Of a DNA stretch of 64,000 bases, positions 6,757-25,778 are shown in pieces. Within the stretch, counting starts at the first letter, position 1. Each line of letters opens with the position of its first letter. Source of the stretch: Candidatus Poribacteria bacterium. GTDB taxonomy: Bacteria; Poribacteria; WGA-4E; WGA-3G. The notes below the pieces were generated by a model. It was not told the origin of the DNA, made no database searches, and saw only the letters and a program-made list of their open reading frames with translations. The DNA lies in NCBI GenBank assembly GCA_021295735.1, contig JAGWBU010000003.1, forward strand, positions 1,630 through 65,629, written 5' to 3'. The position numbers and the translations under genes are program-made.

Positions 6757-7956
6757 ATGAATTTCACATCAATTTTGTTCAACACTGCCGCTGCATTTAC
6801 ATCGCTTGCAGCAGCGAGTCTATCTACATTTGCCGACACTATTGAAAAACCAACTGAACCCCCACCATCTATCCGAGAAAACTTTGAGTTACCATCTTTT
6901 TACCGACAATGGATTGATGTGGGTGGATTTCCCGTCGTTGCATCAGAGAAAGTGAATCCGCTCGCTGTGCAGGAGGCTGCATGGCTCATCCAACAGGTCA
7001 TTGGACACCGTCCAGATTTACTACAAGCACTTGCCAAAAACAGTGTCCGTTTTTCTGTCATGGCTTACGATGAGATGACAACAGAGATTCCTGAACATAG
7101 CGACCTACGCCCCGATTTTTATTGGGACCGCCGTGCTCGTGGTTTGGGTGCCACATCCGCGCGTCCATCAGTAAGTTGTGGTGAGGAAAACCTGCTTAAT
7201 TACCCGGGGGATCCTTACGGAACAGAGAATATACTGATTCACGAGTTCGCTCATGCAATACATCAAATGGGACTCAGTGCCGTTGATCCGGATTTTGACA
7301 AACGGCTTAAGGTTTTGTATGAAAAAGCAATGGAAAAAGGATTGTGGAAAGGCACTTACGCCTCCACAAACAAAGAAGAATATTGGGCTGAAGGCACGCA
7401 ATCATGGTTCAATACGAACCGTGAAAACGATGCACAACACAATCACGTCAGCAAACGGAAAATATTAAAAGATTATGACCCAGAGTTGGCAACGCTGCTC
7501 ACTGAAATCTATGGCGATACCGATTGGCGGTATACCAACGCTTTAACGCGCACCGAACTACCGCATTTACAAGGATTCAATCCTGATAATTCACCAAAAT
7601 TTGAATGGCCCGCTGAATTATCTACATGTTATGAACAATTGTTTGATCCGAACTGCAAGGGTGGTGACAAATGGACAGATTTGAACCGCTATGAACCGAG
7701 TCAGCTTCCAACGCTAAAATCAAACGACGGTGAGCATACCGCAGTCCTTTTTGTGAACAAAACAGATGCAGATATTACCTACTATTGGATAGATGCTGAT
7801 GGTAATGAGAGTTATTGTGGGCGTGCTGCTGCCGAGGCATTCAGTATTCATCATACGCATGCAGGTCATATCTGGTTAGTTAAAGACGAAAATAAGAAAA
7901 ACATAGCCGTGTTTCAAGCTAAAGAAAAAACTGGTCGTGCATTTATTGCGGAATAA
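6757..7956 (+). CDS. Secreted zinc peptidase-like protein with C-terminal VHL beta domain
   Basis: A 399-residue protein with a signal peptide (about residues 1-26, cleavage near TFA-DT). The middle part has a zincin motif, HEFAH at residues 162-166, and a downstream Glu-rich segment NKEEYWAEGTQSWF that is a plausible third metal ligand. The last 72 residues (about 328-399) strongly resemble the von Hippel-Lindau beta domain: VLFVNKT, then YYWIDADG, then HAGHIWLVKD, matching the human pattern VIFCN, WLNFDG and GHLWLFRD. In animals this domain recognises hydroxylated peptides; what it binds here is unknown. The ATG has only a weak ribosome-binding site. A candidate promoter lies at 6655-6683. 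Confidence 0.8.
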   Translation: MNFTSILFNTAAAFTSLAAASLSTFADTIEKPTEPPPSIRENFELPSFYRQWIDVGGFPVVASEKVNPLAVQEAAWLIQQVIGHRPDLLQALAKNSVRFSVMAYDEMTTEIPEHSDLRPDFYWDRRARGLGATSARPSVSCGEENLLNYPGDPYGTENILIHEFAHAIHQMGLSAVDPDFDKRLKVLYEKAMEKGLWKGTYASTNKEEYWAEGTQSWFNTNRENDAQHNHVSKRKILKDYDPELATLLTEIYGDTDWRYTNALTRTELPHLQGFNPDNSPKFEWPAELSTCYEQLFDPNCKGGDKWTDLNRYEPSQLPTLKSNDGEHTAVLFVNKTDADITYYWIDADGNESYCGRAAAEAFSIHHTHAGHIWLVKDENKKNIAVFQAKEKTGRAFIAE

Positions 7957-8168: not shown

Positions 8169-9185
8169 ATGAAAAAAATCGGTTTTCGTATCTTCGTATT
8201 AGTTATAGCGATTCTATTGGTAACACCACTACTTGCTGAAAATGGCGAGAGTATTCTGGATAAAGTGAAAAACCGAGGGCGATTGATATGTGGGGTGAAC
8301 AAAGAATTACCTGGTTTCGGTTATCTCGGTCAGGATGGGAAATATAAAGGCTTTGACGTAGATTTCGGTCGCGCGATTGCAGCCGCTGTCTTTGGTGACC
8401 CAGATAAAGTTGAGTTCCGCTCATTAAAAGGCGCAGACCGTTTTCCCGCGCTTCAGACAGGTGAAATAGATGTTTTAATCCGAAATACGACTTGGACGTT
8501 GATCCGCGACACAGCAAACGGCGCAGACTTCGCACCCCCTACCTTTTACGATGGACAAGGGTTCATGGTTCGCAAAGACCTCGGTGTAACGGAATTGAAG
8601 GAATTGGATGGCGCAACTATCGGTGTCACATCTGGTAGCACGACCGAGTTGAATCTTGCCGATACAATGCGTGCTTTGGGAATCGAAGTTGAAGCTATCG
8701 TTTTTGAAGAAACCGAAACACTTTACCAAAGTTACGATCATGGACGTTGTGATGCCGTTACAAGCGATAAATCCCAATTGATTTCCAGAAAACAAGCATT
8801 GAAAAATCCCGATGAGCATATTATTCTTGACATTACCATTTCTAAAGAACCCCTTGGACCCGTTACCGTCCATGGCGACAATCAATGGAATGATATTGTG
8901 AGTTGGGTCGTTTATGCTACATTCTTTGCAGAAGAACATGGTATTACCAGTGCTAACGTCAAAGATTTTAAAACAGGGAAAATTGAAATAAAACGTTTCC
9001 TCGGAGAAACTGGAAATATGGGTGAGAAGCTTGGATTACCAAATGACTGGGCACGACAAGTGATTGCTGCTGTCGGTAACTATGGTGAAATCTTTGAACG
9101 CCACCTCACACCTCTCGGTCTCCCACGCGGGGTTAACAAACCTTGGACACAAGGAGGACTGCTCTACGCAATGCCGTTCCGTTAG
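8169..9185 (+). CDS. aapJ: Amino-acid ABC transporter substrate-binding protein (AapJ-like)
   Basis: Periplasmic solute-binding protein of 338 residues for polar amino acids. It has a signal peptide (MKKIGFRIFVLVIAILLVTPLLA), then the family-3 binding-protein core starting ILDKVKNRGRLICGVNKELPGFG, with GFDVDFGRAIAAAVFGD and DVLIRNTTWTLIRDT typical of general L-amino-acid binders. ATG 8169 was chosen because AGGAGA ends 6 bases upstream; an in-frame TTG at 8154 overlaps that site. The matching permeases and ATPase are at 18662-22521, separated from it by the restriction-modification island, although aap genes normally sit together. Confidence 0.88.
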   Translation: MKKIGFRIFVLVIAILLVTPLLAENGESILDKVKNRGRLICGVNKELPGFGYLGQDGKYKGFDVDFGRAIAAAVFGDPDKVEFRSLKGADRFPALQTGEIDVLIRNTTWTLIRDTANGADFAPPTFYDGQGFMVRKDLGVTELKELDGATIGVTSGSTTELNLADTMRALGIEVEAIVFEETETLYQSYDHGRCDAVTSDKSQLISRKQALKNPDEHIILDITISKEPLGPVTVHGDNQWNDIVSWVVYATFFAEEHGITSANVKDFKTGKIEIKRFLGETGNMGEKLGLPNDWARQVIAAVGNYGEIFERHLTPLGLPRGVNKPWTQGGLLYAMPFR

Positions 9186-9241: not shown

Positions 9242-10969
9242 ATGGCGAATTATCAAGAACTTGCACAACTCGTTTGGAATGTGGCAGATGATGTACTGCG
9301 AAACTTGTTTAAACAGCACGAATACGGTGACATCACCCTCCCATTTCTGGTACTGCGTCGGTTGGATTGCTTATTAGATGAGGATGGACGAAAAGAGGAA
9401 GCCATCAAAACTTACAATCTGTTTAAAGATCAAGTACCCGAAGAGTCCTTACCACCGATTATCACAGATAAGATAAAGACCAATTTCTACAATATCTCTA
9501 AATACGATCTTTCTCGATTGAAAGACGACCCAAACAATATTCGCATCAACTTTGATAACTACATCGGTGGATTTAGTCAGAACGTGCGAGACATCATTGA
9601 AAACTTCAACCTTGCTCGGTTTATTGAGCGGTTGCACAAGAACAACCGACTGTTCATCTTCTGTGATAAGTTCACCGAAGTTGATTTGCACCCCGATAAG
9701 GTAGACAACCGCACAATGGGGTTGGTCTTTGAGGAACTACTCCGTAAATTCTCGGAGATGTCCAACGAAACCAGCGGGGAACACTACACACCGCGCGATG
9801 TCGTGCAATTATTGGTTTCCTTGCTGTTTGCAGAACACAGTCAAGAACTGCGCGGCGAGGGAATTGTCCGTAGTATCTTCGACCCGTGTTGCGGAACAGG
9901 TGGCATGTTGACAATTGGGAAGAAATATTTCCACGAGCAGATCAATCCAAACGCTGACATTCGGCTGTTAGGACAGGAACTGAACGCGCAGACCTACGCA
10001 ATCTGCAAGTCGGATATGCTCATAATCGGAGAGGATCCCGATAATATCCAACACGGTTCCAGTCTCTCTAATGACCAATTTCAAGGGGAGCGATTCGATT
10101 ATATGATAACAAATCCACCCTTTGGTGTCAGTTGGAAATCTGATGCAGACGCGGTTGAAGCAGATGCAGATACCGCTAACGGTAGATTCTCAGTGGGTAC
10201 TCCTCGCTCCTCTGATGGTGCGTTGCTGTTCCTGCAACACATGCTGTCCAAGATGGAGGACAACGGAAGTCGCGTTGGCATCGTCTTTAACGGGTCACCA
10301 CTCTTCACAGGAGATGCGGGCAGCGGTGAGAGCGATATCCGAAAATGGATTATTGAAAACGATTGGCTGGAGTGTATTATCGCGCTGCCTGAAAAGTTGT
10401 TCTTCAATACCAGTATCGCCACCTACATTTGGATTTTAACAAATAAAAAATCGGAAGTGCGCCAAGGTAATATCCAACTGATCAATGCCGTTGACTTCCA
10501 CAACGATATGAAAAGGAATCTTGGACAAAAGAATGCTCTTATTTCCGATACCCATATCCACCAAATAGCAGAACTCTACACCAACTTTGAAGAGACTGAA
10601 CATTGCAAAATCTATCCAAACGAGTTTTTCGGTTATACAAAAGTAACAGTTGAGAAACCCCTCATTGACGAGGAGACAGGGGATGTCGTCACAGACAAAC
10701 AAGGCAATCCGAAACCAGATACCAAGCTGCGAGACTCTGAACGCGTGCCACTCACAGAGGACATTGAGGATTACTACCAACGAGAAGTAAAACCGCATGT
10801 GCCTGATAGTTGGATGGACAGGAAGAAGGATAAGGTAGGCTACGAAATCAACTTCAATCGATATTTCTACCAGTACACGCCGCTACGCTCACTGAAAGAA
10901 ATTGCTGATGAAATACTGACTCTTGAACGCAAAAGTGAAGGCTTGCTGAATGAGGTGTTAGAGTTATAA
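9242..10969 (+). CDS. hsdM: Type I restriction-modification system methyltransferase subunit HsdM
   Basis: N6-adenine DNA methyltransferase subunit of 575 residues. An N-terminal helical HsdM_N domain (QLVWNVADDVLRNLFKQHEYG) is followed by the methylase core with SAM motif DPCCGTGG at about 214-221 and the catalytic motif NPPFG at 291-295. It acts with HsdS for methylation and with HsdS plus HsdR for cleavage. Its last codons, KSEGLLNEVLEL, recur three more times downstream at cassette boundaries. The ribosome-binding site is weak. hsdS follows only after about 3.4 kb of inserted accessory genes. Confidence 0.93.
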   Translation: MANYQELAQLVWNVADDVLRNLFKQHEYGDITLPFLVLRRLDCLLDEDGRKEEAIKTYNLFKDQVPEESLPPIITDKIKTNFYNISKYDLSRLKDDPNNIRINFDNYIGGFSQNVRDIIENFNLARFIERLHKNNRLFIFCDKFTEVDLHPDKVDNRTMGLVFEELLRKFSEMSNETSGEHYTPRDVVQLLVSLLFAEHSQELRGEGIVRSIFDPCCGTGGMLTIGKKYFHEQINPNADIRLLGQELNAQTYAICKSDMLIIGEDPDNIQHGSSLSNDQFQGERFDYMITNPPFGVSWKSDADAVEADADTANGRFSVGTPRSSDGALLFLQHMLSKMEDNGSRVGIVFNGSPLFTGDAGSGESDIRKWIIENDWLECIIALPEKLFFNTSIATYIWILTNKKSEVRQGNIQLINAVDFHNDMKRNLGQKNALISDTHIHQIAELYTNFEETEHCKIYPNEFFGYTKVTVEKPLIDEETGDVVTDKQGNPKPDTKLRDSERVPLTEDIEDYYQREVKPHVPDSWMDRKKDKVGYEINFNRYFYQYTPLRSLKEIADEILTLERKSEGLLNEVLEL

Positions 10970-10992
10970 GAGGGAAAAGTTATGATTACCGA
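10922..10992 (+). repeat. hsdM-tail repeat, copy A
   Basis: Seventy-one bases covering the hsdM 3' end, the short intergenic gap and the first 11 bases of the next gene. Copy B at 12710-12780 has exactly the same length and aligns without gaps. The hsdM part is also present in copies C (13526-13566) and D (14291-14330). Confidence 0.85.
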
Positions 10993-12208
10993 ACTCAGAG
11001 CGCGAAATTTCAAATCATGGCAAGATACAGGTCCGCTACAGTTCGCCCCATTAACTGGACTTTTTGGTGCGAATAGCTCCGGCAAAACCAGTATCTTACA
11101 GGTACTGTTAATGCTGAAGCAGACTGTAAAAGATAATGATTCCAAGTTACCACTAAACTTTGGTAAGAGCAATTTTGATAATGTTATTCACCTTCACGAT
11201 AAGAATCTTAGTTTAGGTTTTTCGGTGTCGTGGAAACTACCTAAGCAAATAAAAATTCAAGGGGACTTAATCAATTCCCTTTCTTTTTCAACCGCCATTC
11301 TTGAAAAATATGGAAGTGTGATGGTGGAACGTTTTTGTTATTCAACAAATCGTAACGACTTTGAAATAGGTTGGACAGAACGAGGATATAGGTACTTACC
11401 TAATGTTATAGATGAAAAAGCAGACACATACAAATGTTATGGAGTTGATAGTCCAGTAGGACCTTTAGAAAAATTTAAGCCTCTTAGCGAAGAATTTGAG
11501 GGCCTATTTTCTCGAATCATCTATCTCGGTCCACTCCGCGAGTATCCTCAACACAGTTATACTTGGGAGGGTGACCATCCACAAGACATTGGGATGTACG
11601 GTGAAAAGATGATATCTGCCCTGCTTTCGAGCCGGATTCTACGCCACCCAATTGAAGTTCAGATTTTGAAATGGTTACGGAAATTAGACCTGATCTACTC
11701 CTATGATGTTCCTCCTGTCACCGAAGAGGGTAAAAATTATGAATGTCTTGTCAAACAATATAAAGACGGACCAGAAGTCCCACTGACTGATGTTGGTTTT
11801 GGTGTTTCTCAAGTACTGCCTGTGCTTACACTTTGCTATTATGCGCCTGAAGATTCAATCCTCATCCTTGAACAACCGGAGGCACATCTACATCCGAAAG
11901 TCCAATCAGACTTAGCAGATGTTCTCATTGATGTTGTGAAAAATCGAAACGTACAGATTATCCTTGAAAGTCATAGCGAACATCTGCTACTACGTTTGAT
12001 GCGTCGGATTGCTGAAGAAGATATTTCAGTAGATCAAACAGCACTCTATTTCTGCCAGATAAACGAAGGGACCTCCGAAATTGAACGACTCAAGGTTGAC
12101 GAATATGGTAACATCAGCAATTGGCCTCAAAATTTCTTTGGCGATGAGATGGGTGACTTGGTAGAAAAAACGAAAGCCGAAATGCGCCGGCGGAAAGAAA
12201 ACAAATAA
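10982..12208 (+). CDS. AAA-family ATPase with DUF3696-type C-terminus
   Basis: A 408-residue ABC/SMC-like ATPase of the AAA15 group. Walker A is GANSSGKTS at 29-37, an ABC-signature-like DVGFGVSQVLP is at about 270-280, and Walker B is ILILEQPEAHLHP at about 293-305, followed by a conserved His-rich ESHSEHLLLR. The C-terminal ISNWPQNFFGDEMGDL resembles DUF3696. ATPases of this class work with a nuclease partner in several anti-phage systems (OLD, Septu, PARIS). Here the partner is probably the PIN-like protein whose ATG shares one base with this stop codon (TAATG). Found between hsdM and hsdS, so this is defence-island cargo. Confidence 0.85.
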   Translation: MITELRARNFKSWQDTGPLQFAPLTGLFGANSSGKTSILQVLLMLKQTVKDNDSKLPLNFGKSNFDNVIHLHDKNLSLGFSVSWKLPKQIKIQGDLINSLSFSTAILEKYGSVMVERFCYSTNRNDFEIGWTERGYRYLPNVIDEKADTYKCYGVDSPVGPLEKFKPLSEEFEGLFSRIIYLGPLREYPQHSYTWEGDHPQDIGMYGEKMISALLSSRILRHPIEVQILKWLRKLDLIYSYDVPPVTEEGKNYECLVKQYKDGPEVPLTDVGFGVSQVLPVLTLCYYAPEDSILILEQPEAHLHPKVQSDLADVLIDVVKNRNVQIILESHSEHLLLRLMRRIAEEDISVDQTALYFCQINEGTSEIERLKVDEYGNISNWPQNFFGDEMGDLVEKTKAEMRRRKENK

Positions 12209-12714
12209 TGGCAGTGATTGTAGATACAAATGTAGCTTTAGTCGCCAGTGGCCAGTCAGAACAGGCATCTGAGGATTGTGTCGCAGTTTGTGCTGAGAAG
12301 CTTGGACAAATTAACAATGGTGAAGTGAAATTAGTTTTGGATAATCAGCGGCGAATCATTGATGAATACCGGGGACATCTAAATCCAGATGGCCAACCCA
12401 GTATCGGTGATGTATTTCTCAAATGGGTAGAGATGAATTGGGCAAATCCTGAAAGGTGTGATTTAGTTTCAATTACGCCTATTGGTGGTTTAGAGAATGA
12501 GTTTGAGGAGTTTCCAGACGATCCAGCATTGGATGACTTTGATCCAGATGACCGGAAGTTTATAGCGGTTGCATGTGCCCATCCAGAAGAACCGCCTATC
12601 CTGCAAGCGGTAGATAGTCAGTGGTTGGATTTCCGCAACGCATTCCGTCGAAACGGTGTGACAGTGGAGTTTATTTGCGAAGATGATATTCAACGATTGT
12701 ATCAAAGCACTTGA
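12208..12714 (+). CDS. PIN-like domain protein, probable nuclease partner of the ATPase
   Basis: A 168-residue protein with the acidic pattern of PIN-domain RNases: MAVIVDTNVAL (Asp 6), IIDEYRGH (Asp 52 and Glu 53), DPDDRKFIAVA (Asp 115) and AVDSQW (Asp 136). PIN proteins cleave RNA or occasionally DNA as toxins or effectors. It is translationally coupled to the ATPase (TAATG junction), so the two very likely form one functional unit. The stop codon lies inside hsdM-tail copy B. The family is inferred from the spacing of acidic residues; a named family was not recognised. Confidence 0.7.
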   Translation: MAVIVDTNVALVASGQSEQASEDCVAVCAEKLGQINNGEVKLVLDNQRRIIDEYRGHLNPDGQPSIGDVFLKWVEMNWANPERCDLVSITPIGGLENEFEEFPDDPALDDFDPDDRKFIAVACAHPEEPPILQAVDSQWLDFRNAFRRNGVTVEFICEDDIQRLYQST

Positions 12715-12780
12715 ACGCAAAAGTGAAGGTTTGCTGAATGAGGTTTTGGCTTTATAAAAGGGATAAGTTATGATTACCGA
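12710..12780 (+). repeat. hsdM-tail repeat, copy B
   Basis: Same 71-base length as copy A. It still reads RKSEGLLNEVLAL and a TAA stop in the hsdM frame, and ends with an orphan start ATGATTACCGA that matches the first codons of the ATPase gene and then hits a stop (MITDHYLF). Differences from copy A are mostly synonymous, which suggests it derives from a different hsdM allele. Confidence 0.8.
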
Positions 12781-12898
12781 CCACTATCTATTCTGAGCTC
12801 ACGTTAAATTCCGCTGTCCCTTTACCATAAAACTTTGAATCCCGCAGCTTAATCATATATAATTAACATTAACATAATCCTTACTACAGAGGTCGCAG

Positions 12899-13228
12899 AT
12901 GAAAAAACCAAAACTTGTCGTTGGACACCTCATGAATGACCAATTAAGTGTCCAATCTGTTGCAACCTCAAAGTCCTTTGATTGGCTCAAATGGTTAGAG
13001 GCAGAAGAACTTGTTGAATTTTTTAATGAATTGTTTAAGCTGCTAACACGAATCTCAGAAGGCAAAAAAGACGCTCAAACACTTTCAATTTTTCTCTCCG
13101 AATGGCGTGAAACCGCATTGATTAATTCTGAGCCAGATGTCTTAGCAGATATTGTTGAAGCACAACAAGAATTAGCCGCAGGTGGCGGCAAGGAGTGGAC
13201 ACAGATCAAAAAGGAAATTGGACTGTGA
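12899..13228 (+). CDS. Putative antitoxin of a RelE-type pair
   Basis: A 109-residue protein with no recognised family. Helical, with an acidic middle (LKWLEAEELVEFFNELFKLL) and a C-terminal part SEPDVLADIVEAQQELAAGGGKEWTQIKKEIGL. The role is inferred from context: its TGA overlaps the GTG of the RelE/ParE-like gene (GTGA), the typical antitoxin-toxin coupling, and both sit between two hsdM-tail repeats as a separate cassette. GAGGT precedes the ATG. No clear DNA-binding fold can be named. Confidence 0.6.
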   Translation: MKKPKLVVGHLMNDQLSVQSVATSKSFDWLKWLEAEELVEFFNELFKLLTRISEGKKDAQTLSIFLSEWRETALINSEPDVLADIVEAQQELAAGGGKEWTQIKKEIGL

Positions 13229-13506
13229 ATTCCCTACCCTATACACTTGCACCACTTCCAAGAAAGGTGGAAAATTTTATCAGAAGGTTGGACCAGGAAA
13301 CACAAGCGCGAATTAGTACTGCTTTTGAGTACATCCTTAGTTCTCCGTTTCGACATGAAAATCCAACAACTATTACACCATTACATGGAAAGAAGAAAGG
13401 GCTTTACCGTTATCGGATAGGGAATCTCCGGTTCATTTATCAGGTTGACAGAGAAGAACGCATAATCCATATTGTACAAATTGACAACCGTGGTGATATT
13501 TATTAA
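13225..13506 (+). CDS. RelE/ParE-type toxin
   Basis: A 93-residue protein with the RelE/ParE superfamily pattern: N-terminal helices with VENFIRRLDQETQARISTAF, then the strands HGKKKGLYRYRIGNLRFIYQVDREERIIHIVQIDNRGDIY. Members cleave mRNA on the ribosome or poison gyrase; which applies here cannot be told. GTG 13225 was chosen because it gives the classic N-terminus and overlaps the upstream stop (GTGA). An in-frame ATG at 13195 would add ten residues inside the antitoxin gene. Typical length for the family. Confidence 0.82.
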   Translation: MNSLPYTLAPLPRKVENFIRRLDQETQARISTAFEYILSSPFRHENPTTITPLHGKKKGLYRYRIGNLRFIYQVDREERIIHIVQIDNRGDIY

Positions 13507-13525
13507 GAATGCGCTATTCAGACAG

Positions 13526-13566
13526 AAAAGTGAAGGTTTGCTGAATGAGGTGTTAGAATTATGAGG
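13526..13566 (+). repeat. hsdM-tail repeat, copy C
   Basis: Reads KSEGLLNEVLEL with a TGA stop that overlaps an ATG (GAATTATGAGG). The bases after it, ATGAGGCGTTGCTGA, match the hsdS start ATGAGACGTTATCCTGA and then end in a stop. This is a scar of an hsdM/hsdS junction, not of the hsdM/ATPase junction seen in copies A and B. Confidence 0.75.
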
Positions 13567-13618
13567 CGTTGCTGATTAACCAGCACTACGCAACTTATTT
13601 CGTTAGGAGAAAGTCACT

Positions 13619-13888
13619 ATGCCATATACCAATTATACCGCCAAAGAAATTGCATCACGAGGTGAAACAATTTATAAACGGGAAATACGAGACAGAGTTG
13701 AGCCAAAGCACAAAGGCAAGTTTTTGGTTATTGACATAGAAACGGGTGAATACGAAATCAACACAGACGATTTAATCGCCACGAAACGGCTCCTTGCTAA
13801 GCACCCTAATGCTGTCGTTTACGGCTTACAAATTGGGTTTTCAACTGCTTACCGAATCGGTGGACACTTTTCGGTCAAAACGGAATGA
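13619..13888 (+). CDS. Conserved small hypothetical protein, partner of clan AA protease
   Basis: An 89-residue protein of unknown function. Conserved phrases are IASRGETIYKREIRDRVE, HKGKFLVIDIETGEYEI and ALLAKHP-like RLLAKHPNAVVYGLQIG. A paralogue with the same layout is at 52951-53235. In other bacteria, as I recall, this family often precedes a retropepsin-like protease, and here its stop overlaps the protease start (ATGA). The pair has the organisation of a toxin-antitoxin-like cassette, but no activity is known. A clear AGGAG lies upstream. It is bracketed by hsdM-tail copies C and D. Confidence 0.7.
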   Translation: MPYTNYTAKEIASRGETIYKREIRDRVEPKHKGKFLVIDIETGEYEINTDDLIATKRLLAKHPNAVVYGLQIGFSTAYRIGGHFSVKTE

Positions 13889-14261
13889 TAAATGGAAAAA
13901 TTACCACTCATCGAGAAGCTATCATCGGATTAGAGGTTATTGGTTCGAATCAGAAAAGAGAGAAGGTTGAGGCGGTCATTGACACAGGTTTCAATGGCTA
14001 TCTAACACTACCGAATAATTTAATCAATTCCCTCAATCTTCAGCAAGCTGGCAGTCGGCGCGTTACGCTTGGTGATGGAAACATAGTCGTGTTAGAGATG
14101 TATTTTGCAAAAGTCTTATGGCATGGGCAGGAACGGAGATACTTGCTCTACAAGCAGACGGTGGAACATTGATTGGTATGTCACTGCTGTATGGAAGTCG
14201 TTTGGTGTTAGAGGTTATAGACAACGGTAATGTGACTATTGACTCTCTGATGCCCGTATGA
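13885..14261 (+). pseudogene. Clan AA (retropepsin-like) aspartic protease, frameshifted
   Basis: The first frame (13885-14172) encodes the protease N-terminus with the catalytic triplet DTG at residues 33-35 in AVIDTGFNGYLTLP, then runs into an unnatural tail after LWHGQERR. From about 14145 the adjacent frame continues the family consensus, ending with LQADGGTLIGMSLLYGSRL and a stop at 14259-14261. One missing base between about 14128 and 14150 explains this. The intact product would be about 125 residues, the usual length. It starts within the stop of the preceding gene (ATGA). Either a pseudogene or a sequencing error. Confidence 0.75.
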
Positions 14262-14290
14262 TCTTTTGGGTACCGACCTATTGTTGAGGA

Positions 14291-14330
14291 AAAAGTGAAG
14301 AATTGCTGAATGAGGTATTGGAATTATGAG
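14291..14330 (+). repeat. hsdM-tail repeat, copy D, at the hsdS start
   Basis: Reads KSEELLNEVLEL followed by a TGA that overlaps the ATG of hsdS (GAATTATGAG). This looks like the original hsdM/hsdS junction, left next to hsdS after cassettes were inserted upstream. Confidence 0.78.
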
Positions 14331-15633
14331 ACGTTATCCTGAATATAAAGACAGCAGCGTGGAATGGATTGGGGAAATACCAGCGCATTGGGAAATCAAA
14401 AGACTTAAGCACGGTGCGAAGATACTACCAAGTAATGTTGACAAACACATCTATCCAGATGAGATCCAAGTCAGATTATGCAATTATACAGATGTTTATT
14501 ACAACGACTATATTACAGTTGATACCGTTTTGGAAAAGGGTAGTTGTAAAGAACGTGAATTTACGAAATTTGCCTTGAGGAAAGATGATGTTATAATTAC
14601 CAAAGATTCTGAGACCCCAGATGACATTGGTGTTCCAACATTCGTCAAAAACAATTTAGACAATGTTGTCTGTGGTTATCATTTAACAATGATTAGAACC
14701 TACGCTTGTTGTGGCGAGTTTGTTTTTAGATTTATTCAATCCGATAGAACAAGAAGATATTTTGAGTTGGAGTCAAATGGAATTACCAGATACGGCTTAG
14801 GAAAACCATCAATTGAAAATCTACTTTTACCGATACCTACTGATTCTGAACAAACCCAAATCGCCAACTTCCTTGGCCGCAAAACCGAACAGATTGACGA
14901 ACTCATCCGCATCAAAGAAAGACGGATAGAACTGCTACAGGAACAACGCACCGCACTGATAAATCAGGCAGTGACAAAGGGACTTGACCCAAATGTGGAG
15001 ATGAAACCGTCGGGCGTGGTCTTAAGAACGAAGCATGTTGGTTCAAGCAACCCATCCAAAAACAATATCAAGACGGCTTGTCTTAAGGATGAACTTGTAG
15101 TCTTCCTTCCAATGGAACGTGTTCATACTGATGGGACAATCGACCAAGAATTAAGGCTACCATATTCTCAACTGAAAAATGGCTACACTTACTTTGAGGA
15201 AGGTGATATTCTAATAGCAAAAGTAACTCCTTGTTTTGAAAATGGAAAGATTGTCCACATAAAGAATTTGACAACCTCAGTTGGATTTGGCTCAACCGAG
15301 TTTATTGTCATTCGCCCTGATTTGCAAAAGGTCTTTCCACCTTTTTTGCATTATATTCTCTACAATGCTCCACTTCGTAGCATTGGTAAACATTTTATGA
15401 CGAGTGCAATAGGTCTTAAACGAGTGCCAACTGAATTTGTTGAGGATTTTCGGATTCCTATACCAACTTATCAAGAACAACAGCAAATCGCAAACTTTCT
15501 CAGCCACAAAACCAAGCAGATTGACGAACTGATAGCAGCAGAGCAGCGAAAAATTGAACTCCTCAAAGAATACCGCCAATCCCTTATTTCCGAAGCAGTG
15601 ACCGGCAAAATAGATGTCCGAAACGAGATTTAG
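14326..15633 (+). CDS. hsdS: Type I restriction-modification specificity subunit HsdS
   Basis: The DNA-recognition subunit, 435 residues, with two target-recognition domains separated by helical spacers. The first half opens with KDSSVEWIGEIPAHWEIKRLK and ends in the conserved helix EQTQIANFLGRKTEQIDELI (about 183-202). The second half ends with EQQQIANFLSHKTKQIDELI and a repeat of the IELLKEYR motif. Each half contacts half of a bipartite DNA target that cannot be predicted here. The ATG overlaps an hsdM-like TGA of repeat copy D. hsdR begins 3 bases after its stop. Confidence 0.93.
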   Translation: MRRYPEYKDSSVEWIGEIPAHWEIKRLKHGAKILPSNVDKHIYPDEIQVRLCNYTDVYYNDYITVDTVLEKGSCKEREFTKFALRKDDVIITKDSETPDDIGVPTFVKNNLDNVVCGYHLTMIRTYACCGEFVFRFIQSDRTRRYFELESNGITRYGLGKPSIENLLLPIPTDSEQTQIANFLGRKTEQIDELIRIKERRIELLQEQRTALINQAVTKGLDPNVEMKPSGVVLRTKHVGSSNPSKNNIKTACLKDELVVFLPMERVHTDGTIDQELRLPYSQLKNGYTYFEEGDILIAKVTPCFENGKIVHIKNLTTSVGFGSTEFIVIRPDLQKVFPPFLHYILYNAPLRSIGKHFMTSAIGLKRVPTEFVEDFRIPIPTYQEQQQIANFLSHKTKQIDELIAAEQRKIELLKEYRQSLISEAVTGKIDVRNEI

Positions 15634-15636
15634 ACT

Positions 15637-18630
15637 ATGCAGACATATACTGAAGAAAACTTTGAAGATCACATTGAAGCACACTTAAATCGGTCGGGCT
15701 ATCAGTCGTTACAATCTACTGACTATGATAAATCCCTCTGCCTGGTCCCCGATGAGACGTTAAAGTTTATTCAGATGACACAACTGCAGGAATATCAGAA
15801 ACTGGAACGACAACACGGAGGGAATACATCCGTTAAACTCCTTGAACGTACGAGCAGAGAGATTGAACGTCGTGGCGTGCTGGACGTGTTACGGAATGGC
15901 GTTAAGGATCGGGGTTGTCACTTTAAACTGGCATACCCACCACCATCAAGTGACATGAACCCCGAACATAAAGAATTCTACGATAAAAACCGATTCTCTC
16001 TGATTCGGCAGCTTCGGTATTCACAGCAGAACGAGAAATCGCTTGATATGGTGTTGTTTCTCAACGGTCTACCGTTAGTAACAATGGAACTAAAAAATAG
16101 CCTCACAGGACAGACGGTGGCAGATGCAGAGAAACAGTATCGGACAGATCGGGATCCGAGAGAGCCGTTGTTCAAATTCAAACGGTGTCTGGTTCATTTT
16201 GCGGTAGGTAACGAAAAGGTTTCCATGACAACCCAATTGCAGCGGGACAGGACAAAGTTCTTTCCGTATAACAAGGATATTGAAAACCCAGTGAACCGTA
16301 AAGGTCACAAGACTGCTTATCTGTGGGAGGACATTCTACAGCCTGATAACCTTATGGAGTTGATCAACAACTTTATCCATGAGCAAAAGGTCACAGAAAA
16401 GGTCTACGATCCCAACATTAAAATGGTAAAAGATGTGAAACACGACGTGCTTATCTTCCCGCGATACCATCAACTTGATGTGATTCGTAATTTGGAAAAG
16501 GCTATCAAGAAAGAGGAGGAAGGGCATAATTACCTCATCCAACATACCACAGGGAGCGGCAAATCAAACTCCATCGCGTGGTTAGCACATCTGCTAACAC
16601 ATCTTTACAGTGATAAGACACAGACAAAACGTATTTTTGACTCTGTCATTGTTGTAACTGATCGACGCGTGCTTGATAGGCAGCTGCAGGAGACGATCAA
16701 GCAGTCGGAGCAGGTTGAAGGAGTCGTTCATTCTGTTGATAAGAACTCGGCACAACTTAGGGAATACCTTGAATCTGGTAAGAACATCATTATCTCAACG
16801 ATTCAGAAGTTCAATGTAATAGCAGAGACGATCGGCGCGCTCAAAAGCAAGACCTTTGCAGTGATTATTGACGAAGTGCACTCCTCACAGACAGGTGAGT
16901 CCGCACGCAACCTCAGAGCCTCACTCTCAAGAGGAATTGAGCAAGAGGAAGAGATAGAAGATAATGACCCCGACGAGGTAGAATCAGATATTGATGCTAA
17001 AATTATTGCGGAGATGGAACAGCGTAGGATGCAGGATCATATCTCCTATTTCGGTTTCAGCGGCACACCGAAAAACAAGACTTTAGAACTGTTTGGACGA
17101 AAAAAGAAAGATGGCACATTTTTTCCATTCCACGTTTATCCGATGCACCAGAGCATCAGCGAAGGTTTTACACTGGACGTATTACAGAACTACACGACCT
17201 TTAAGCGGTATTTTCAACTCGTCAAAAGTGTTTCGGAGGATAAGGAGTACGAAAAGGCGCGTACACTTCGCACACTCACCAACCACGTTGACCTGCAACG
17301 CCACAGTATTGAGATGAAAACCAAGATAATGTTGGAACACTTCATCGAACACACAGCAAAAACGATACAAGGTAAGGGACGTGCAATGTTAATCACACCG
17401 TCCCGATTGCACTGTGTCAGATACAAGCAGGAGTTTGATAAACAGATGCGGAAAATGGCACTTCCTTACGGTTGTCTGGTGGCTTTCAGTGACACTGTGA
17501 CCGATAAAGATAACGAACAAGATCACACTGAAAACGGGATGAATGCGTTGCCTCCAGGGGTTAAGACAGAGGATGCATTCAAGGATCCACAGTATCGGAT
17601 TTTGATTGTCGCAAACAAATTTCAGACAGGGTATGATGAACCACTATTACAAACGATGTATGTTGATAAGAAATTAGAGGGGCTACAATGTGTCCAGACT
17701 CTGAGTCGACTAAACCGCGTCATGTCCGGTAAAACAGATGTGTTGGTGCTTGACTTTGTGAATGACCCAGAACAGGTACAAGAAGCGTTTCAACAATACT
17801 ATGGGACCACGACACTCGCGGAGGAGACGGATCCGAACAAGTTGTATGACCTACAGAGCCTTTTAGAAGGTTTTGACCTTTACGACGAGGAGACCATTGA
17901 GAAATTCTGCGGTATTTTTTATAGCAAGAATAAACCTGACGAATTGCTGCAGGGCATCCTTGATGGTGTTGTTGAGAAATGGTCCGAACGTGAAACAGAT
18001 GAAAGAGAGGAGTTTCGTTCTGCCCTACAAAGTTATATCCGACTCTACGGATACATCTCACAGTTGATTACCTTTAACGATGTGGCATGGGAAAAGTTGT
18101 ATATCTTTGGTCGCCACCTGAACAAAAAACTACCGAAGCGGGAACACTCGGACTTACAAGGTCTCCTTGAGTCTGTGGACTTGGATTCGTTTCGAGTGCA
18201 AAAGACCTATGAAAACCTAAACCTCTCCCTTGACCCACGGGATAGTGAGTTAGAAGGAATAAGCAGCGGTGTGGGTGCAATCAGGGAACCAGAACAGGAT
18301 TTCCTCTCCAATATCATTAACACCCTGAACGATGCCCATCAGACAAATTTTACAACAGAGGATAAGGTTGATATTGCAACTATTAACCAAAAGGTACAGG
18401 ATAACGAAGAACTACGACAGGTGATTGAGGGAGAAAATTCGGATAGCAATAAAGAGTATAAGTTCAATGAGGTGATTGATAAAATCTTATTGGAATTTGT
18501 AAATAGCAAGTTGGAACTCTATAGGAAATTATCTAAACAGTCAAATCCCGATGTCAACGCAGACCTTAAACGTCAACTCTATCAAGCCTATCGTGAGCAA
18601 TCGTCCGCCGCTGCGCAAAGGAACGATTAG
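15637..18630 (+). CDS. hsdR: Type I restriction endonuclease subunit HsdR
   Basis: Motor and nuclease subunit, 997 residues. The PD-(D/E)xK nuclease is N-terminal: Asp 137 in LDMVLFLNG and Glu 152-Leu-Lys 154 in VTMELKN. The SF2 helicase has Walker A TTGSGKS at 304-310, DEVH at about 412-415, FSGTPKNK (motif III region) and QTLSRLNR (motif VI region). A helical C-terminus probably docks to HsdM/HsdS. It is complete and in frame, so the system could be active. It starts 3 bases after hsdS. About 30 bases separate its end from aapQ, marking the right edge of the island. Confidence 0.94.
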   Translation: MQTYTEENFEDHIEAHLNRSGYQSLQSTDYDKSLCLVPDETLKFIQMTQLQEYQKLERQHGGNTSVKLLERTSREIERRGVLDVLRNGVKDRGCHFKLAYPPPSSDMNPEHKEFYDKNRFSLIRQLRYSQQNEKSLDMVLFLNGLPLVTMELKNSLTGQTVADAEKQYRTDRDPREPLFKFKRCLVHFAVGNEKVSMTTQLQRDRTKFFPYNKDIENPVNRKGHKTAYLWEDILQPDNLMELINNFIHEQKVTEKVYDPNIKMVKDVKHDVLIFPRYHQLDVIRNLEKAIKKEEEGHNYLIQHTTGSGKSNSIAWLAHLLTHLYSDKTQTKRIFDSVIVVTDRRVLDRQLQETIKQSEQVEGVVHSVDKNSAQLREYLESGKNIIISTIQKFNVIAETIGALKSKTFAVIIDEVHSSQTGESARNLRASLSRGIEQEEEIEDNDPDEVESDIDAKIIAEMEQRRMQDHISYFGFSGTPKNKTLELFGRKKKDGTFFPFHVYPMHQSISEGFTLDVLQNYTTFKRYFQLVKSVSEDKEYEKARTLRTLTNHVDLQRHSIEMKTKIMLEHFIEHTAKTIQGKGRAMLITPSRLHCVRYKQEFDKQMRKMALPYGCLVAFSDTVTDKDNEQDHTENGMNALPPGVKTEDAFKDPQYRILIVANKFQTGYDEPLLQTMYVDKKLEGLQCVQTLSRLNRVMSGKTDVLVLDFVNDPEQVQEAFQQYYGTTTLAEETDPNKLYDLQSLLEGFDLYDEETIEKFCGIFYSKNKPDELLQGILDGVVEKWSERETDEREEFRSALQSYIRLYGYISQLITFNDVAWEKLYIFGRHLNKKLPKREHSDLQGLLESVDLDSFRVQKTYENLNLSLDPRDSELEGISSGVGAIREPEQDFLSNIINTLNDAHQTNFTTEDKVDIATINQKVQDNEELRQVIEGENSDSNKEYKFNEVIDKILLEFVNSKLELYRKLSKQSNPDVNADLKRQLYQAYREQSSAAAQRND

Positions 18631-18661: not shown

Positions 18662-19834
18662 ATGGCACAGATACCATCTCACACCCCCTTCTGGCGAGAT
18701 ATTCGCTTTATACGTGTACTATTACAAATACTTTTTCTGCTTGGTGTTTTGCTGTTAGCCGGGATTCTCTACACAAATATGCAAAGGGGTTTGAGAAATC
18801 TAAACTTAGAACTCAACCTCGATTTTCTCAGTAACGAAGCAGGATTCTACATCTCCGAAGGTATTGGATACGATCCATCAAACGCATACCAGAAAGCATT
18901 TTGGGTTGGCATACTGAACACAATAAAGGTAAGCTTGATAGGAATCGTATGTGCGACAGTATTAGGACTCTTTTTCGGTATCGCACGGTTATCAAGCAAC
19001 TGGTTAATTCGCAACATCGCAACTGCTTATGTTGAAGTTTTCCGTAATATTCCACTCCTACTCCAGATTCTGTTTTGGTATACTGCAGTCATAATCGGTC
19101 AGCTTCCTCAAGTCCACGATAGCATATCACTTCCGGGGTCAATATACATTAACAATCGCGGTATATATTTACCTGCACTTGAACCAACACCAGGTCTGAA
19201 AATTTGGCTCATTTTTATCTGTATTGGCATTCTCATAGGAGGGGTTCTATTTGTGTTGCAGTGGCGGAAACTACAACGGTTGGACCGGCCCGGTTTTCCA
19301 GCAAAATGGGCACTCCCTGTTTTTATTATAGTCGCAATCTGTGGATGGTTTCTCACACCGGAGAATCCTTTTAAATTAAACTTACCAGAATTGGGACGTT
19401 TTAACTATCAAGGTGGATTCCGTTTTTCTTCAGAGTTTTCTGCACTTCTCATCGGACTCTCAGTGTATACAGGCGCATATATTGCAGAAATCGTCCGAAG
19501 TGGGCTACAAGCAGTCGCGAAGGGACAGCGGGAAGCCGCGGGAGCAGTCGGCTTAAATCAACGGCAGACACTTAGACTCATCGTTCTTCCACAAGCAATC
19601 CCCATCATTGTGCCACCACTTACGAGCCAGTACCTAAACCTCGCGAAAAACTCGAGTTTAGCTGTGGCAATCGGTTTTCCAGACGTGTTTAGCATCGGAA
19701 ATACGATGATGTCTCATACAGGACAATCAATCCCAGTTTTCGCTATGATTATGGTGAGTTATCTGATCATGAGTCTGACAACTTCCGCTGCGATGAATTG
19801 GTATAACAAATGGATTAACAGGATGAAGAAATAG
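18662..19834 (+). CDS. aapQ: Amino-acid ABC transporter permease (AapQ-like)
   Basis: Inner-membrane permease of 390 residues. An N-terminal membrane segment (about 13-40) is followed by NLNLELNLDFLSNEAGF, typical of AapQ, then the HisM-type core with several membrane helices. The ATPase-coupling EAA loop is REAAGAVGLNQRQTLRLIVLPQA. The long insertion between the first helices, with a hydrophobic stretch near IWLIFICIGILIGGVLFVL, is normal for this subfamily. It works with AapM, AapP and the binding protein AapJ. The binding-protein gene is 9.5 kb upstream, beyond the restriction-modification island. Confidence 0.88.
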   Translation: MAQIPSHTPFWRDIRFIRVLLQILFLLGVLLLAGILYTNMQRGLRNLNLELNLDFLSNEAGFYISEGIGYDPSNAYQKAFWVGILNTIKVSLIGIVCATVLGLFFGIARLSSNWLIRNIATAYVEVFRNIPLLLQILFWYTAVIIGQLPQVHDSISLPGSIYINNRGIYLPALEPTPGLKIWLIFICIGILIGGVLFVLQWRKLQRLDRPGFPAKWALPVFIIVAICGWFLTPENPFKLNLPELGRFNYQGGFRFSSEFSALLIGLSVYTGAYIAEIVRSGLQAVAKGQREAAGAVGLNQRQTLRLIVLPQAIPIIVPPLTSQYLNLAKNSSLAVAIGFPDVFSIGNTMMSHTGQSIPVFAMIMVSYLIMSLTTSAAMNWYNKWINRMKK

Positions 19835-19858
19835 TACTATGTCCATCAATATTGTAGT

Positions 19859-19996
19859 TTGGGTAGAGCGCAGCGAAACCCATAGGCGTCAATTTAGTGG
19901 GTGCATGCCCGTCACACATTGTAGGGCGGGGTCTCTGTGCCCCGCCGATATTTGGCACATCCCAAGCAACGGGCGGGCACAGAGACCCGCCCCTAC
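19859..19996 (+). repeat. Dispersed repeat with long foldback
   Basis: Starts with GGGTAGAGCGCAGCGAAACC and CCATAGGCGTCAATTTA, like the element at 4774. The core at 19921-19996 is a foldback: GGGCGGGGTCTCTGTGCCCC on the left and GGGCGGGCACAGAGACCCGC on the right around a loop of about 24 bases. In RNA this would make a very stable hairpin within the aapQ-aapM gap. No right-hand inverted end was seen. Confidence 0.65.
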
Positions 19997-20124
19997 AATA
20001 GGAGTGAGGGGTGGATAAGATAGAACGAAATCTAACAAAATCAGATTTATGAGATACGTTCTAGTTTGCTATCAAACTATGTATAAAAATTTCAACAACA
20101 TCACATCGTGGAAAATTAAAAACT

Positions 20125-21288
20125 ATGGAACAAATTAAACCGCCAACCCTCACAAAAGGCCCAGTAGGATGGCTTAAAGAAAACTTATTCAACACATGGT
20201 ATAACGTCCTGCTAACTGGCATTGCACTTGTGTTGCTATTTTTAGGTTTTAAGGGTTTTCTAACGTGGGCATTCACAGAAGCGAAGTGGAACGTAATCCC
20301 GGCAAACCTACAACTTTTTGCTGTAGGGTCTTATCCAAGGGATCAGATATGGCGCGTCTGGTCGGTGATTTATGTTTTAGCCGTGCTGATAGGGTTAAGT
20401 GCTGGAATCTGGGGCAGTTTAGTCCGTCGTTTTGCCTTTATACTTGGTGGCGTTTTTTTCTTATGTGCCGTTATCCCATTTGAACTGTCAACGCGCGGAT
20501 TGTTTTTGGGTGCCGTTGCAGTAATAGGAGGCGCTCTCTTTCTGGGACGAGGCAGGAAAAACTTGCGTCGATGGATCTTGGCAGGATGGCTTCTCTCCTT
20601 CCCTGTAATAATGATGCTACTACGTGGGTTCGGTGAAAACGCTGTGCTGACAAGCAATTGGGGTGGACTCCTCCTTACACTCATTCTTGCAGTTGTAGGA
20701 ATTGTCGTCTCCTTCCCACTGGGCGTGTTTTTAGCACTCTGCAGACAAAGTAAACTGCCTGCTATCCGATGGATTTCAACAACTTATATTGAGACAGTTC
20801 GCGGTGTGCCGTTGATAACTATCTTATTCATGGGAAGTATATTAATTCCCATCTTTATTCCGGATTTTAATATAAACCAAGTTTTACGGATGATGATAGG
20901 AATCACCTTGTTCTCCGCAGCATACATGGCTGAAAACGTCCGTGGCGGACTTCAGGCAATCCCCACCGGTCAATATGAGGCTGCGCAAGCTGTCGGACTC
21001 AATTATGTCCAGACCATGCTGTTTATCGTCTTACCACAAGCACTCCGATCCGTCATTCCAGCAATTGTTGGACAATTTATCGCGCTTTTTAAGGATACTT
21101 CCTTAGTCGCTATCATCGGACTTGTGGATCTGTTAGGTGTCGCGAAAAGTGTCATCGCAGACCCCAATTGGCTCGGGCTTCAAGCAGAAGTATATCTGTT
21201 CGCAGCAATTATCTATTTTGTCTTCAGTTATACAATGTCCTATTTCAGCCAAGAAGTTGAAACTACGCTTGGGGTTGGACAAAATTAA
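20125..21288 (+). CDS. aapM: Amino-acid ABC transporter permease (AapM-like)
   Basis: Second permease subunit, 387 residues. N-terminal WLKENLFNTWYNVLLTGIAL is characteristic of AapM. Hydrophobic segments follow at about 30-48, 78-95, 103-118 and 150-170, then the HisM core with the coupling loop YEAAQAVGLNYVQTMLFIVLPQA. It forms a heterodimer with AapQ. It is separated from aapQ by about 290 bases of repeat and from aapP by a repeat element that duplicates its last 18 bases (GVGQN plus stop). Its own expression may therefore depend on a local promoter. Confidence 0.88.
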   Translation: MEQIKPPTLTKGPVGWLKENLFNTWYNVLLTGIALVLLFLGFKGFLTWAFTEAKWNVIPANLQLFAVGSYPRDQIWRVWSVIYVLAVLIGLSAGIWGSLVRRFAFILGGVFFLCAVIPFELSTRGLFLGAVAVIGGALFLGRGRKNLRRWILAGWLLSFPVIMMLLRGFGENAVLTSNWGGLLLTLILAVVGIVVSFPLGVFLALCRQSKLPAIRWISTTYIETVRGVPLITILFMGSILIPIFIPDFNINQVLRMMIGITLFSAAYMAENVRGGLQAIPTGQYEAAQAVGLNYVQTMLFIVLPQALRSVIPAIVGQFIALFKDTSLVAIIGLVDLLGVAKSVIADPNWLGLQAEVYLFAAIIYFVFSYTMSYFSQEVETTLGVGQN

Positions 21289-21729
21289 CCTATAAGCGTC
21301 AATTTAATGCCTGATTTTCTTGTGGGAGGGCTTTCTAAGCCCGATTTATTACCCAAAGGTAGGCGCGTTTTGTCCACGCGCTGAGAACTCTGAATTCTGC
21401 TGAAAATTACATCATTTGAGTCATAATTATTGGAAAAACCGTGAAAATTGCGTAGCGCAATTTATTGCGCCTCTTTCTCTTTTCAGAACCAAGGATTACA
21501 CGGATTAGAGGATTGTGATTGATTAGGTTTCTTTGTAGCGGCCAATTTTAGTTTGCGCATACACAATCCAGCACAAACTAAAAGTTTATGCTACAGAGGA
21601 AACATCTGATGAAAAATAATCCTGGAAATCCCGTAATCCTGATAATCCTGGTTCAGAACAATCCGAGATTCAGACAAGAAAACGGATGCATCTTCTTAAA
21701 TTGACACTTATGGGTTGGACAAAATTAAC
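21272..21729 (+). repeat. Insertion-like repeat flanked by 18-base direct repeats
   Basis: GGGTTGGACAAAATTAAC occurs at 21272-21289, as the end of aapM, and again at 21712-21729. Just inside are the inverted ends CTATAAGCGTCAATTTAA at 21290-21307 and TTAAATTGACACTTATGG at 21696-21713. The 422-base interior has no gene. The structure resembles a non-autonomous element with an unusually long target duplication, splitting aapM from aapP. Confidence 0.65.
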
Positions 21730-21759
21730 ACTTTCAAATAAAGTTAAGGAACGGACACA

Positions 21760-22521
21760 ATGAACAATCTTGAAAATGGCACGAATGAACCCATCATTAT
21801 TTGTGAAGACATACATAAATGGTATGACGATTTCCATGTGCTCAAAGGAATTACAACCTCTTTCCAAAAAGGTGAAAAAGCGGTAATATGTGGGCCCTCC
21901 GGATCCGGAAAATCCACTTTTATTAGGACAATCAATCGTCTTGAAGAACATCAACAGGGAAAAATCATCGTTGAAGGTATTGAACTTACCAATGACCTAC
22001 GAAACATCAATCGTATCCGTCAGGAAGTCGGTATGGTCTTTCAACAATTCAATCTGTTTCCACACCTGACGAACCTACAGAATATAACTTTAGGTCCTAT
22101 TAGAGTAAGAAAAATGACAAAAAGCGAGGCAAAGTCTGAGGCTTTAGCGCTATTGGAACGGATGGATATTGCTGATCAAGCCGAAAAATATCCTTCGGAG
22201 ATTTCGGGTGGACAGCAGCAGCGTGTCGCAATCGCAAGAGCATTGGCAATGGAACCAAAAATCATGCTGTTTGATGAACCGACCAGTGCGCTTGACCCAG
22301 AAATGATTACAGAAGTTTTAGACGTAATGCGTGAACTTGCACATTCAGGCATGACAATGCTTGTTGTTACGCATGAGATGGGATTTGCGCGCGAAGTCGC
22401 TGACCGAATTCTTTTTTTTGACGAAGGGATGATTGTGGAGGATGCAGCACCTGCAGATTTCTTTGATAATCCACAGCATGAACGTACAAAACTTTTTATC
22501 TCGCAAACACTGCAACATTAG
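21760..22521 (+). CDS. aapP: Amino-acid ABC transporter ATP-binding protein (AapP-like)
   Basis: ATPase subunit of 253 residues that powers uptake through AapQ/AapM. Walker [10 protein letters not shown] is at about 46-54, the Q-loop at [11 protein letters not shown], the signature [16 protein letters not shown], Walker [15 protein letters not shown] and the switch His in VVTHEMGFA. All are intact and the length is normal for GlnQ/HisP-type proteins. The ATG has GGAAC-like weak pairing upstream. It comes after the 458-base repeat that separates it from aapM. Confidence 0.92.
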
Positions 22522-24926: not shown

Positions 24927-25778
24927 ATGGTAACAAAAGAACAAGTTGACTTTTTTCAGGAAAACGGATATCTCAAATTCGGTAAAGTTTTAGATAGCGA
25001 TGGTGTCCAAACCATGCGCGCAGGATTAGACACAATTATTGAATTGGAACTCAACGAAGGTGATGATTCATCACCGGAATTCAAATACGGGCATGACCGT
25101 CAAGGACAGCGACTCCATAGAGGTAGAGATCACCCACGTGCAATCCATCAATTCGTCAATATGTGGAAACGCGAACCCAGTTACGAGGCAGCTATCCATA
25201 ATCCGCATATTGCAAAGACAGCATGTGCATTATTGGATACTCCTGAAGTTCGTCTATGGCATGATCAAGTTATTTCTAAACCGCCACAAGATAACGGACA
25301 TTTCGGTTTTCATCACGATTTCTTCTTTTGGCCCCTCAGTCCTCCGAACATTGTGAGTTGTTGGCTTGCTTTAGACGATGCCACTGTGGACAGCGGATGC
25401 ATGCACGTCATGCCGAAAAGTCACAAGGATGTACGTTTTTCGGTTGAAGCAAGAGCAGCCTTTAACGCGGAAACAGCAAAAGCACAAGAAGAAGGACGTG
25501 AACCACCACCGAATCCGTGGTCAGAAAGACGGAATTTGGACATCAGTCACGGCATTCCAGTGGAGTTAAAAGCAGGCGAGTGTATGTTTCATCACTGCCT
25601 TAACTGGCACGGCACGCCGCCAAATGTTACAGACCATCAACGTCGCGCATTTGTCATGATTTTCATGGCGAAGGATGTTTGCTATAACAACGCGCAATCT
25701 CCAGGACACGTCCTTGTGCCAACAATTGAAGTTGCTGATGGCGAACCGCTTGTCGGTGATGGATTTCCGGTTGCATAA
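24927..25778 (+). CDS. Phytanoyl-CoA dioxygenase family protein
   Basis: Fe(II)/2-oxoglutarate oxygenase of 283 residues. The proximal metal ligands are His 129 and Asp 131 in FHHDFFFW, the distal ligand His 228 in LNWHGTPPN, and Arg 240 in HQRRAF probably binds 2-oxoglutarate. SGCMHVMPKSHKD between them is the usual cupin-core turn. AAGGAGAA precedes the ATG. It is followed after 17 bases by the ATPase gene, yet the two functions are probably unrelated. It differs clearly in sequence from the other two PhyH proteins in the window. Confidence 0.9.
   Translation: MVTKEQVDFFQENGYLKFGKVLDSDGVQTMRAGLDTIIELELNEGDDSSPEFKYGHDRQGQRLHRGRDHPRAIHQFVNMWKREPSYEAAIHNPHIAKTACALLDTPEVRLWHDQVISKPPQDNGHFGFHHDFFFWPLSPPNIVSCWLALDDATVDSGCMHVMPKSHKDVRFSVEARAAFNAETAKAQEEGREPPPNPWSERRNLDISHGIPVELKAGECMFHHCLNWHGTPPNVTDHQRRAFVMIFMAKDVCYNNAQSPGHVLVPTIEVADGEPLVGDGFPVA

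Follow-up and report, generated by a model that had tools for sequence, protein, structure and literature searches.

A likely secreted M34-like zinc peptidase of Candidatus Poribacteria carries a C-terminal VHL beta domain

The gene at positions 6757 to 7956 of the window, by which we mean the whole 64,000-nucleotide stretch of Candidatus Poribacteria DNA analyzed here, encodes a protein in which an M34-like metallopeptidase domain is followed by a C-terminal VHL beta domain, the domain of the human tumour suppressor pVHL, which in animals recognizes hydroxyproline in HIF. Our best explanation, to which we assign a probability of about one half, is that this protein is a secreted M34-like zinc endopeptidase whose VHL domain docks on hydroxyproline- or proline-rich proteins and which feeds an Aap-type transporter. 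The features of the gene are the following.

6757..7956, + strand: peptidase-VHL gene, 399-residue ORF with an ATG start
6757..6834, + strand: probable signal peptide, residues 1-26 (SLSTFA/DT), by inspection
6847..6867, + strand: proline-rich segment, residues 31-37 (KPTEPPP; Poribacteria consensus EPxPPP), by conservation
6874..7626, + strand: predicted M34-like metallopeptidase domain, residues 40-290 (AlphaFold2, Foldseek, sub-threshold Pfam M90 and ATLF matches)
7240..7254, + strand: HEXXH zinc motif, H162 E163 F A H166, conserved in 57/57 homologues
7357..7380, + strand: catalytic Tyr201 and third zinc ligand Glu208 (Y-x6-E), conserved in 56/57 and 57/57
7723..7947, + strand: VHL beta domain, residues 323-397 approximately (Pfam PF01847; Foldseek to pVHL)
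7786..7875, + strand: hydroxyproline-type pocket, W344, Y353/C354, T367, H371, W373, by alignment and conservation statistics

The C-terminal tail is a VHL beta domain, as proposed in a preliminary description of this DNA. Membership rests on relatives and fold, since the window protein itself scores below the curated Pfam cut-off (21 bits for PF01847) while orthologues exceed it and nearly all members of an aligned set of homologues match. The anticipated profile match does exist, at 14.5 bits (E 0.036) for the whole protein and 18.2 bits (E 0.0025) for its last 95 residues, but both values lie below that cut-off, which is exceeded by orthologues in 19 of 60 relatives (up to 41.6 bits, best E 5.3e-10). 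In a set of 25 members, most of them distant homologues that had been collected with peptidase rather than VHL motifs, 24 match VHL at E ≤ 0.01 (best 8.7e-10), the window protein being the exception, and a VHL profile search of 14 control genomes gave no match. The top PDB sequence matches are human pVHL chains, and identity to human pVHL residues 63-122 reaches 36% among relatives. Structure prediction bore out the assignment: with a whole-chain AlphaFold2 model (34-sequence alignment, mean pLDDT 81), all 50 listed Foldseek matches in the PDB are human pVHL chains (probability 1.00, E 2.5e-6 to 1.1e-5), with rmsd values mostly of 2-4 Å and about 90 columns covered. The chain stops at residue 399, just past the beta domain, and shows no sign of an elongin-C-binding alpha domain.

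In pVHL, the hydroxyproline site comprises Trp88, Tyr98, His110, Ser111, His115, and Trp117, where Ser111 and His115 form hydrogen bonds with the hydroxyl group of hydroxyproline and Tyr98 bonds the carbonyl (PMC9528729). Alignment places W344, T367, H371, and W373 of the window protein at positions 88, 111, 115, and 117, respectively, and a hydroxyproline-type pocket appears to be largely retained. The pocket foreseen in the preliminary description is therefore recovered in part: Trp88, His115, and Trp117 are kept, but position 111 is a threonine and the tyrosine is displaced by one, with Cys354 at position 98 and Tyr353 one residue earlier. Throughout the window's genus, a tyrosine lies one position ahead of 98, with Arg or Cys at 98 itself, so the equivalent of Tyr98, one of the five pocket residues, is uncertain in this genus. 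Verrucomicrobial homologues such as L103 and L104 have the canonical Tyr98.

Analysis of 47 bacterial VHL domains revealed Trp88 in 47/47, His115 in 46/47, Trp117 in 45/47, and a tyrosine at position 98 in 30/47, position 111 being Thr or Ser in all 47. Among the 76 columns of this alignment, W88, H115, W117, and S111 rank 2nd, 3rd, 4th, and 8th in conservation, and of 200,000 five-column sets drawn at random, 12 matched the conservation of the pocket; with draws restricted to polar or aromatic columns, 82 of 200,000 did so. Asn67, Arg69, and Arg107, which make HIF-specific contacts, show no conservation, as one would expect for a different peptide partner. On these alignments, hydroxyproline is a plausible ligand of the VHL domain.

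A contrast is provided by long poribacterial paralogues that have gained WD40, LRR, dockerin, or other domains and can still be aligned through the VHL region; the Pfam scan no longer recognized VHL in those scanned. Nine of them keep Asn78 (9/9) and mostly Trp117 (7/9), and have lost His115 (9/9), Tyr98 (9/9), and mostly Trp88 (7/9). As these proteins have all lost His115 and mostly Trp88, the retention of both residues in the compact ones would reflect use rather than folding alone, and the fold by itself does not seem to demand the pocket. In several of these loci (L066, L067, L073, L074, L063-L065, L068), the peptidase-VHL unit is joined to WD40 propellers, LRRs, dockerin, or FlgD-like tails, and one of them (L066) has lost the catalytic glutamate of the HEXXH motif (HRLAH) and may be a non-catalytic binding version.

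The fusion to an HExxH peptidase, also part of the preliminary description, holds, with H162-E163-F-A-H166 in the 399-residue ORF. Homologues show conservation of the whole putative catalytic set (H162/E163/H166, Tyr201, and Glu208) in at least 56 of 57 sequences, and PPEP-3 has the same Y-x6-E spacing in Tyr190/Glu197 (PMC12828418). The peptidase domain was modelled alone with AlphaFold2 (residues 26-300, 57-sequence alignment, pLDDT 94.9), and the Foldseek search returned PPEP-3 as the best match (E 5.7e-6, TM 0.64 by target length), PPEP-2, and then ATLF, no other match having E ≤ 0.001. When PDB sequences were searched with a profile, the same PPEP and ATLF groups came up at marginal E values of 0.007-0.2. 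With the Pfam ATLF-PPEP profile (PF07737), the window protein reaches 16.6 bits (E 0.0067), below the curated cut-off of 27.4 bits, and E ≤ 0.01 is reached by 30 of 34 orthologues and paralogues, with no listed score above the cut-off. The Peptidase M90 profile (PF06167) gave 19 bits (E 0.0011), also under its curated cut-off of 26.2 bits, and assignment to M90 was rejected since, in addition, the fold search favors PPEP/ATLF. According to the model, the peptidase is thus of the M34-like fold, in the Pro-Pro endopeptidase/ATLF fold class. This fold suggests cleavage between prolines but leaves Pro-Pro specificity unproven, since ATLF is also a near match and a PPEP homologue devoid of Pro-Pro activity is known (PMC12828418).

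Secretion of the protein, as previously put forward, is likely. By inspection, an N-terminal hydrophobic stretch followed by STFA/DT reads like a signal peptide; this region shows a mean identity of 42% between same-genus orthologues, versus 85% in the peptidase domain, and residues 1-25 have pLDDT values below 50 in the AlphaFold2 model. A paralogue clade has a lipobox-like FFxxC instead. The proline-rich segment that follows is conserved (P32 in 34/34, P35 in 31/34, P36 in 32/34), and residues 31-40 around it are predicted to be ordered (pLDDT 95). The EPxPPP segment resembles Ac-EPLPPPP, the peptide co-crystallized with PPEP-3, and could be a built-in pseudo-substrate; the motif is weaker outside Poribacteria.

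Downstream of the peptidase gene, the window encodes the components of an amino-acid ABC transporter, split by a restriction-modification island.

8169..9185, + strand: aapJ-like amino-acid ABC solute-binding protein, 3' of the peptidase gene (SBP_bac_3, E 4e-18)
9242-18630: type I restriction-modification island of 9.4 kb, between aapJ and the first permease
18662..22521, + strand: remainder of the transporter, two permeases and an ATPase (Pfam BPD_transp_1 twice, ABC_tran)
18662-19834, + strand: permease 1 (BPD_transp_1)
20125-21288, + strand: permease 2 (BPD_transp_1)
21760-22521, + strand: transporter ATPase (ABC_tran)

The island contains hsdM, an AAA/DUF3696 ATPase, a toxin-antitoxin-like pair, hsdS, and hsdR. 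The peptidase is followed by aapJ in 7/7 same-genus loci, and in a relative with a closed genome (L084) the order peptidase-aapJ-permease-permease-ATPase is uninterrupted, that is, a complete aapJQMP set lies behind the peptidase. Another locus (L086) has an hsdM insertion at the same place as the window. The other compact loci (L087-L100) have no such neighbours. Within the window's genus, the gene order supports peptide scavenging as the role of the protein.

The closest relatives are metagenome-assembled genomes of Candidatus Poribacteria, a phylum that dominates in marine sponges (PMC3909097). Orthologues occur in 36 of 60 relatives, mostly with 71-85% identity within the genus, and VHL domains at E ≤ 1e-4 were detected in 4 of 22 genera only among 85 Poribacteria genomes. 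A scan of genome contigs with the peptidase motifs SCGEENLL and IL[VI]HEF[AS]H retrieved more than 500 peptidase homologues; many of the best 80 come from Verrucomicrobia and Planctomycetes, and isolated ones are labelled as Myxococcales, Proteobacteria, and Armatimonadetes. A VHL-like tail is present in 26 of the 59 non-poribacterial loci examined, and all 24 VHL-tailed ones aligned with the window protein reach PF01847 at E ≤ 0.01. The other non-poribacterial homologues end near residue 290-300 or bear Sel1, cyclophilin, or other hydrolase domains; in three planctomycete or verrucomicrobial loci (L134, L139, L156), the VHL domain is replaced by a cyclophilin-type prolyl isomerase domain, another proline-linked partner. 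Given these substitutions in many distant homologues and three relatives (L032-L034) with the peptidase but no VHL domain, the VHL domain is dispensable. Because free-living Verrucomicrobia and Planctomycetes from groundwater, lakes, and the sea have the fusion as well, it is no novelty of sponge symbionts, and a sponge- or host-specific adaptation was rejected as the whole story.

Analysis of 44 PVC-type genomes revealed VHL domains on further proteins: at least 10 DPPIV/S9 peptidases (most of them with an intact pocket), CAP proteins, sulfatases and LRR proteins (His115 being lost in these two groups), and one DNA-binding/transmembrane protein. The latter, a predicted protein (L217, 2305-4071), has a DNA-binding domain of the bacterial histone-like type and a likely transmembrane segment, and its VHL domain is C-terminal. 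In PVC bacteria and Poribacteria, the DPPIV/S9 peptidases that contain VHL (L069-L071, L185, L191, L193, L199, L207, L210, L222) carry it near the N-terminus; in a further one (L223), it is C-terminal and His115 is lost. The presence of VHL on two unrelated peptidase families fits a docking role, but the sulfatase and LRR cases show that the module extends beyond this, and with the CAP partners they weaken the idea that bacterial VHL domains are linked to proline only.

We then considered where hydroxyproline might come from. The many Fe(II)/2-oxoglutarate oxygenases to which the preliminary description had pointed are indeed present, with 116 PhyH (phytanoyl-CoA dioxygenase-type) matches in the 5.1-Mb genome, but their link to hydroxyproline is weak, as the Pfam search of the same genome found no P4H/EGLN-type 2OG-FeII_Oxy_3 domain; relatives mostly have one borderline match each. 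A large number of PhyH oxygenases is a poribacterial feature already on record (PMC3909097). Two PhyH matches lie close to the peptidase locus (1637-2428 and 24927-25778). Since the oxygenases are of the PhyH type, hydroxyproline made by the bacterium itself is unlikely and this origin was not supported. An own collagen-like substrate was dropped, the genome containing one sub-threshold collagen-repeat match and none above the cut-off, as was hydroxyproline catabolism through the proline racemase/hydroxyproline epimerase family, found in 1 of 60 relatives; no hydroxyproline epimerase was found in the genome itself. If hydroxyproline is the ligand, its source is external to the bacterium.

Several explanations of the VHL tail compete. 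That it resembles VHL by chance has in its favor the sub-threshold score of the window protein itself; this was rejected as extremely improbable in view of the orthologue scores (5e-10), the 50 listed fold matches, all to pVHL, and the 24/25 homologues with E ≤ 0.01. A more serious alternative, possible yet clearly behind docking on hydroxyproline, is that VHL is a generic secreted beta-sandwich accessory, which would bind a glycan, a cell-wall polymer, or a plain proline-rich strand, or serve as a structural or surface-attachment tail. Its occurrence on sulfatases, LRR, CAP, and DNA-binding/transmembrane proteins besides peptidases, its loss or replacement in homologues, and the loss of His115 in the sulfatase and LRR settings agree with such a role, but in the peptidase setting the four residues at the core of the pocket hardly vary, and among them Ser/Thr111 and His115 are retained, the two that hydrogen-bond the hydroxyproline hydroxyl in pVHL (PMC9528729). 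The protein might also be an autoregulatory or processing protease, in which EPxPPP acts as a pseudo-substrate within the chain while VHL packs on the enzyme, but we regard this as improbable. In its favor, the proline-rich segment is conserved with predicted ordered surroundings, the PPEP-3 co-crystal peptide is similar, and endogenous substrates of PPEP-1/-2 are encoded beside the PPEP gene (PMC12828418), but here the conserved neighbour is a transporter component and not a proline-rich adhesin, and the proline motif fades outside Poribacteria.

Docking of the protease onto proline-rich or hydroxyproline-rich proteins is probably the function served, since the pairing recurs in many free-living bacteria. 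Against it stand the shift of Tyr98, the lost HIF contacts, the dispensability of VHL, the sulfatase and LRR partners without His115, and a genome lacking a detected P4H-type oxygenase, a collagen repeat over the cut-off, and a hydroxyproline epimerase. In the mechanism that we propose, the peptidase-VHL protein would be exported, and its VHL domain would grip hydroxyproline, or a similarly shaped proline-like residue, through W344, T367, H371, and W373 on extended, proline-rich extracellular proteins; the tethered peptidase would cut nearby, and the adjoining Aap-type ABC transporter would take up the released amino acids. The PPEP-like fold of the model would fit a proline-rich or hydroxyproline-rich target, in line with the substrates first suggested, but collagen is not specifically favored, because the same fusion is found in Verrucomicrobia and Planctomycetes that live in groundwater, lakes, and the sea.

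It is a tentative idea, rather unlikely on present evidence, that a widespread family of secreted bacterial M34-like and DPPIV/S9 peptidases reads extracellular hydroxyproline through VHL domains, an ancient bacterial trick which free-living PVC bacteria possess and which animals may have taken over later to sense oxygen. If true, hydroxyproline reading would predate or parallel oxygen sensing, and natural proteases aimed at hydroxyproline-rich proteins (collagens, algal or plant extensins) would exist, with a ready assay, since human VHL ligands and hydroxyproline peptides are available.

Bacterial VHL domains are already on record and do not form a new class: in the open-access literature, we found a single description, without peptidase fusion, of EMK97_00595 from Litorilituus sediminis, a bacterial protein that likewise bears a VHL beta domain, annotated in silico at residues 131-212 (PMC9002001). 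In the accessible text of that paper, the word peptidase is absent, a tumour-suppressor role is proposed on weak grounds, and no analysis of the pocket or family is given. The word Hippel is absent from the Poribacteria single-cell genome paper. Among peptidases, PPEP-1/-2/-3 share with the window protein the best solved-fold match, the HEXXH motif, the Tyr and Glu residues with Y-x6-E spacing, and probably secretion, but identity is about 17% by structural alignment and the window family adds the YWDRRARGLG and SCGEENLL blocks; to our knowledge, PPEPs carry no VHL domain. Peptidase M90/MtfA (PF06167) has in common a sub-threshold profile match around the HEXXH-to-Glu stretch, but this falls below the curated cut-off, the family is absent from the best listed Foldseek matches, and MtfA is cytosolic whereas the window protein is likely secreted. 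The VHL-containing DPPIV/S9 peptidases also present a VHL module with an intact pocket on a proline-linked peptidase, but they are unrelated serine peptidases with VHL near the N-terminus (C-terminal in L223). Finally, human pVHL (PF01847) shares the fold, the FxN and GHxW motifs, and Trp88, Ser/Thr111, His115, and Trp117; the window protein differs from it in having the beta domain only, in its probable secretion and fusion to a peptidase, and in the pocket itself, where Ser111 is replaced by Thr, Tyr98 is shifted in the genus, and Asn67, Arg69, and Arg107 are not kept.
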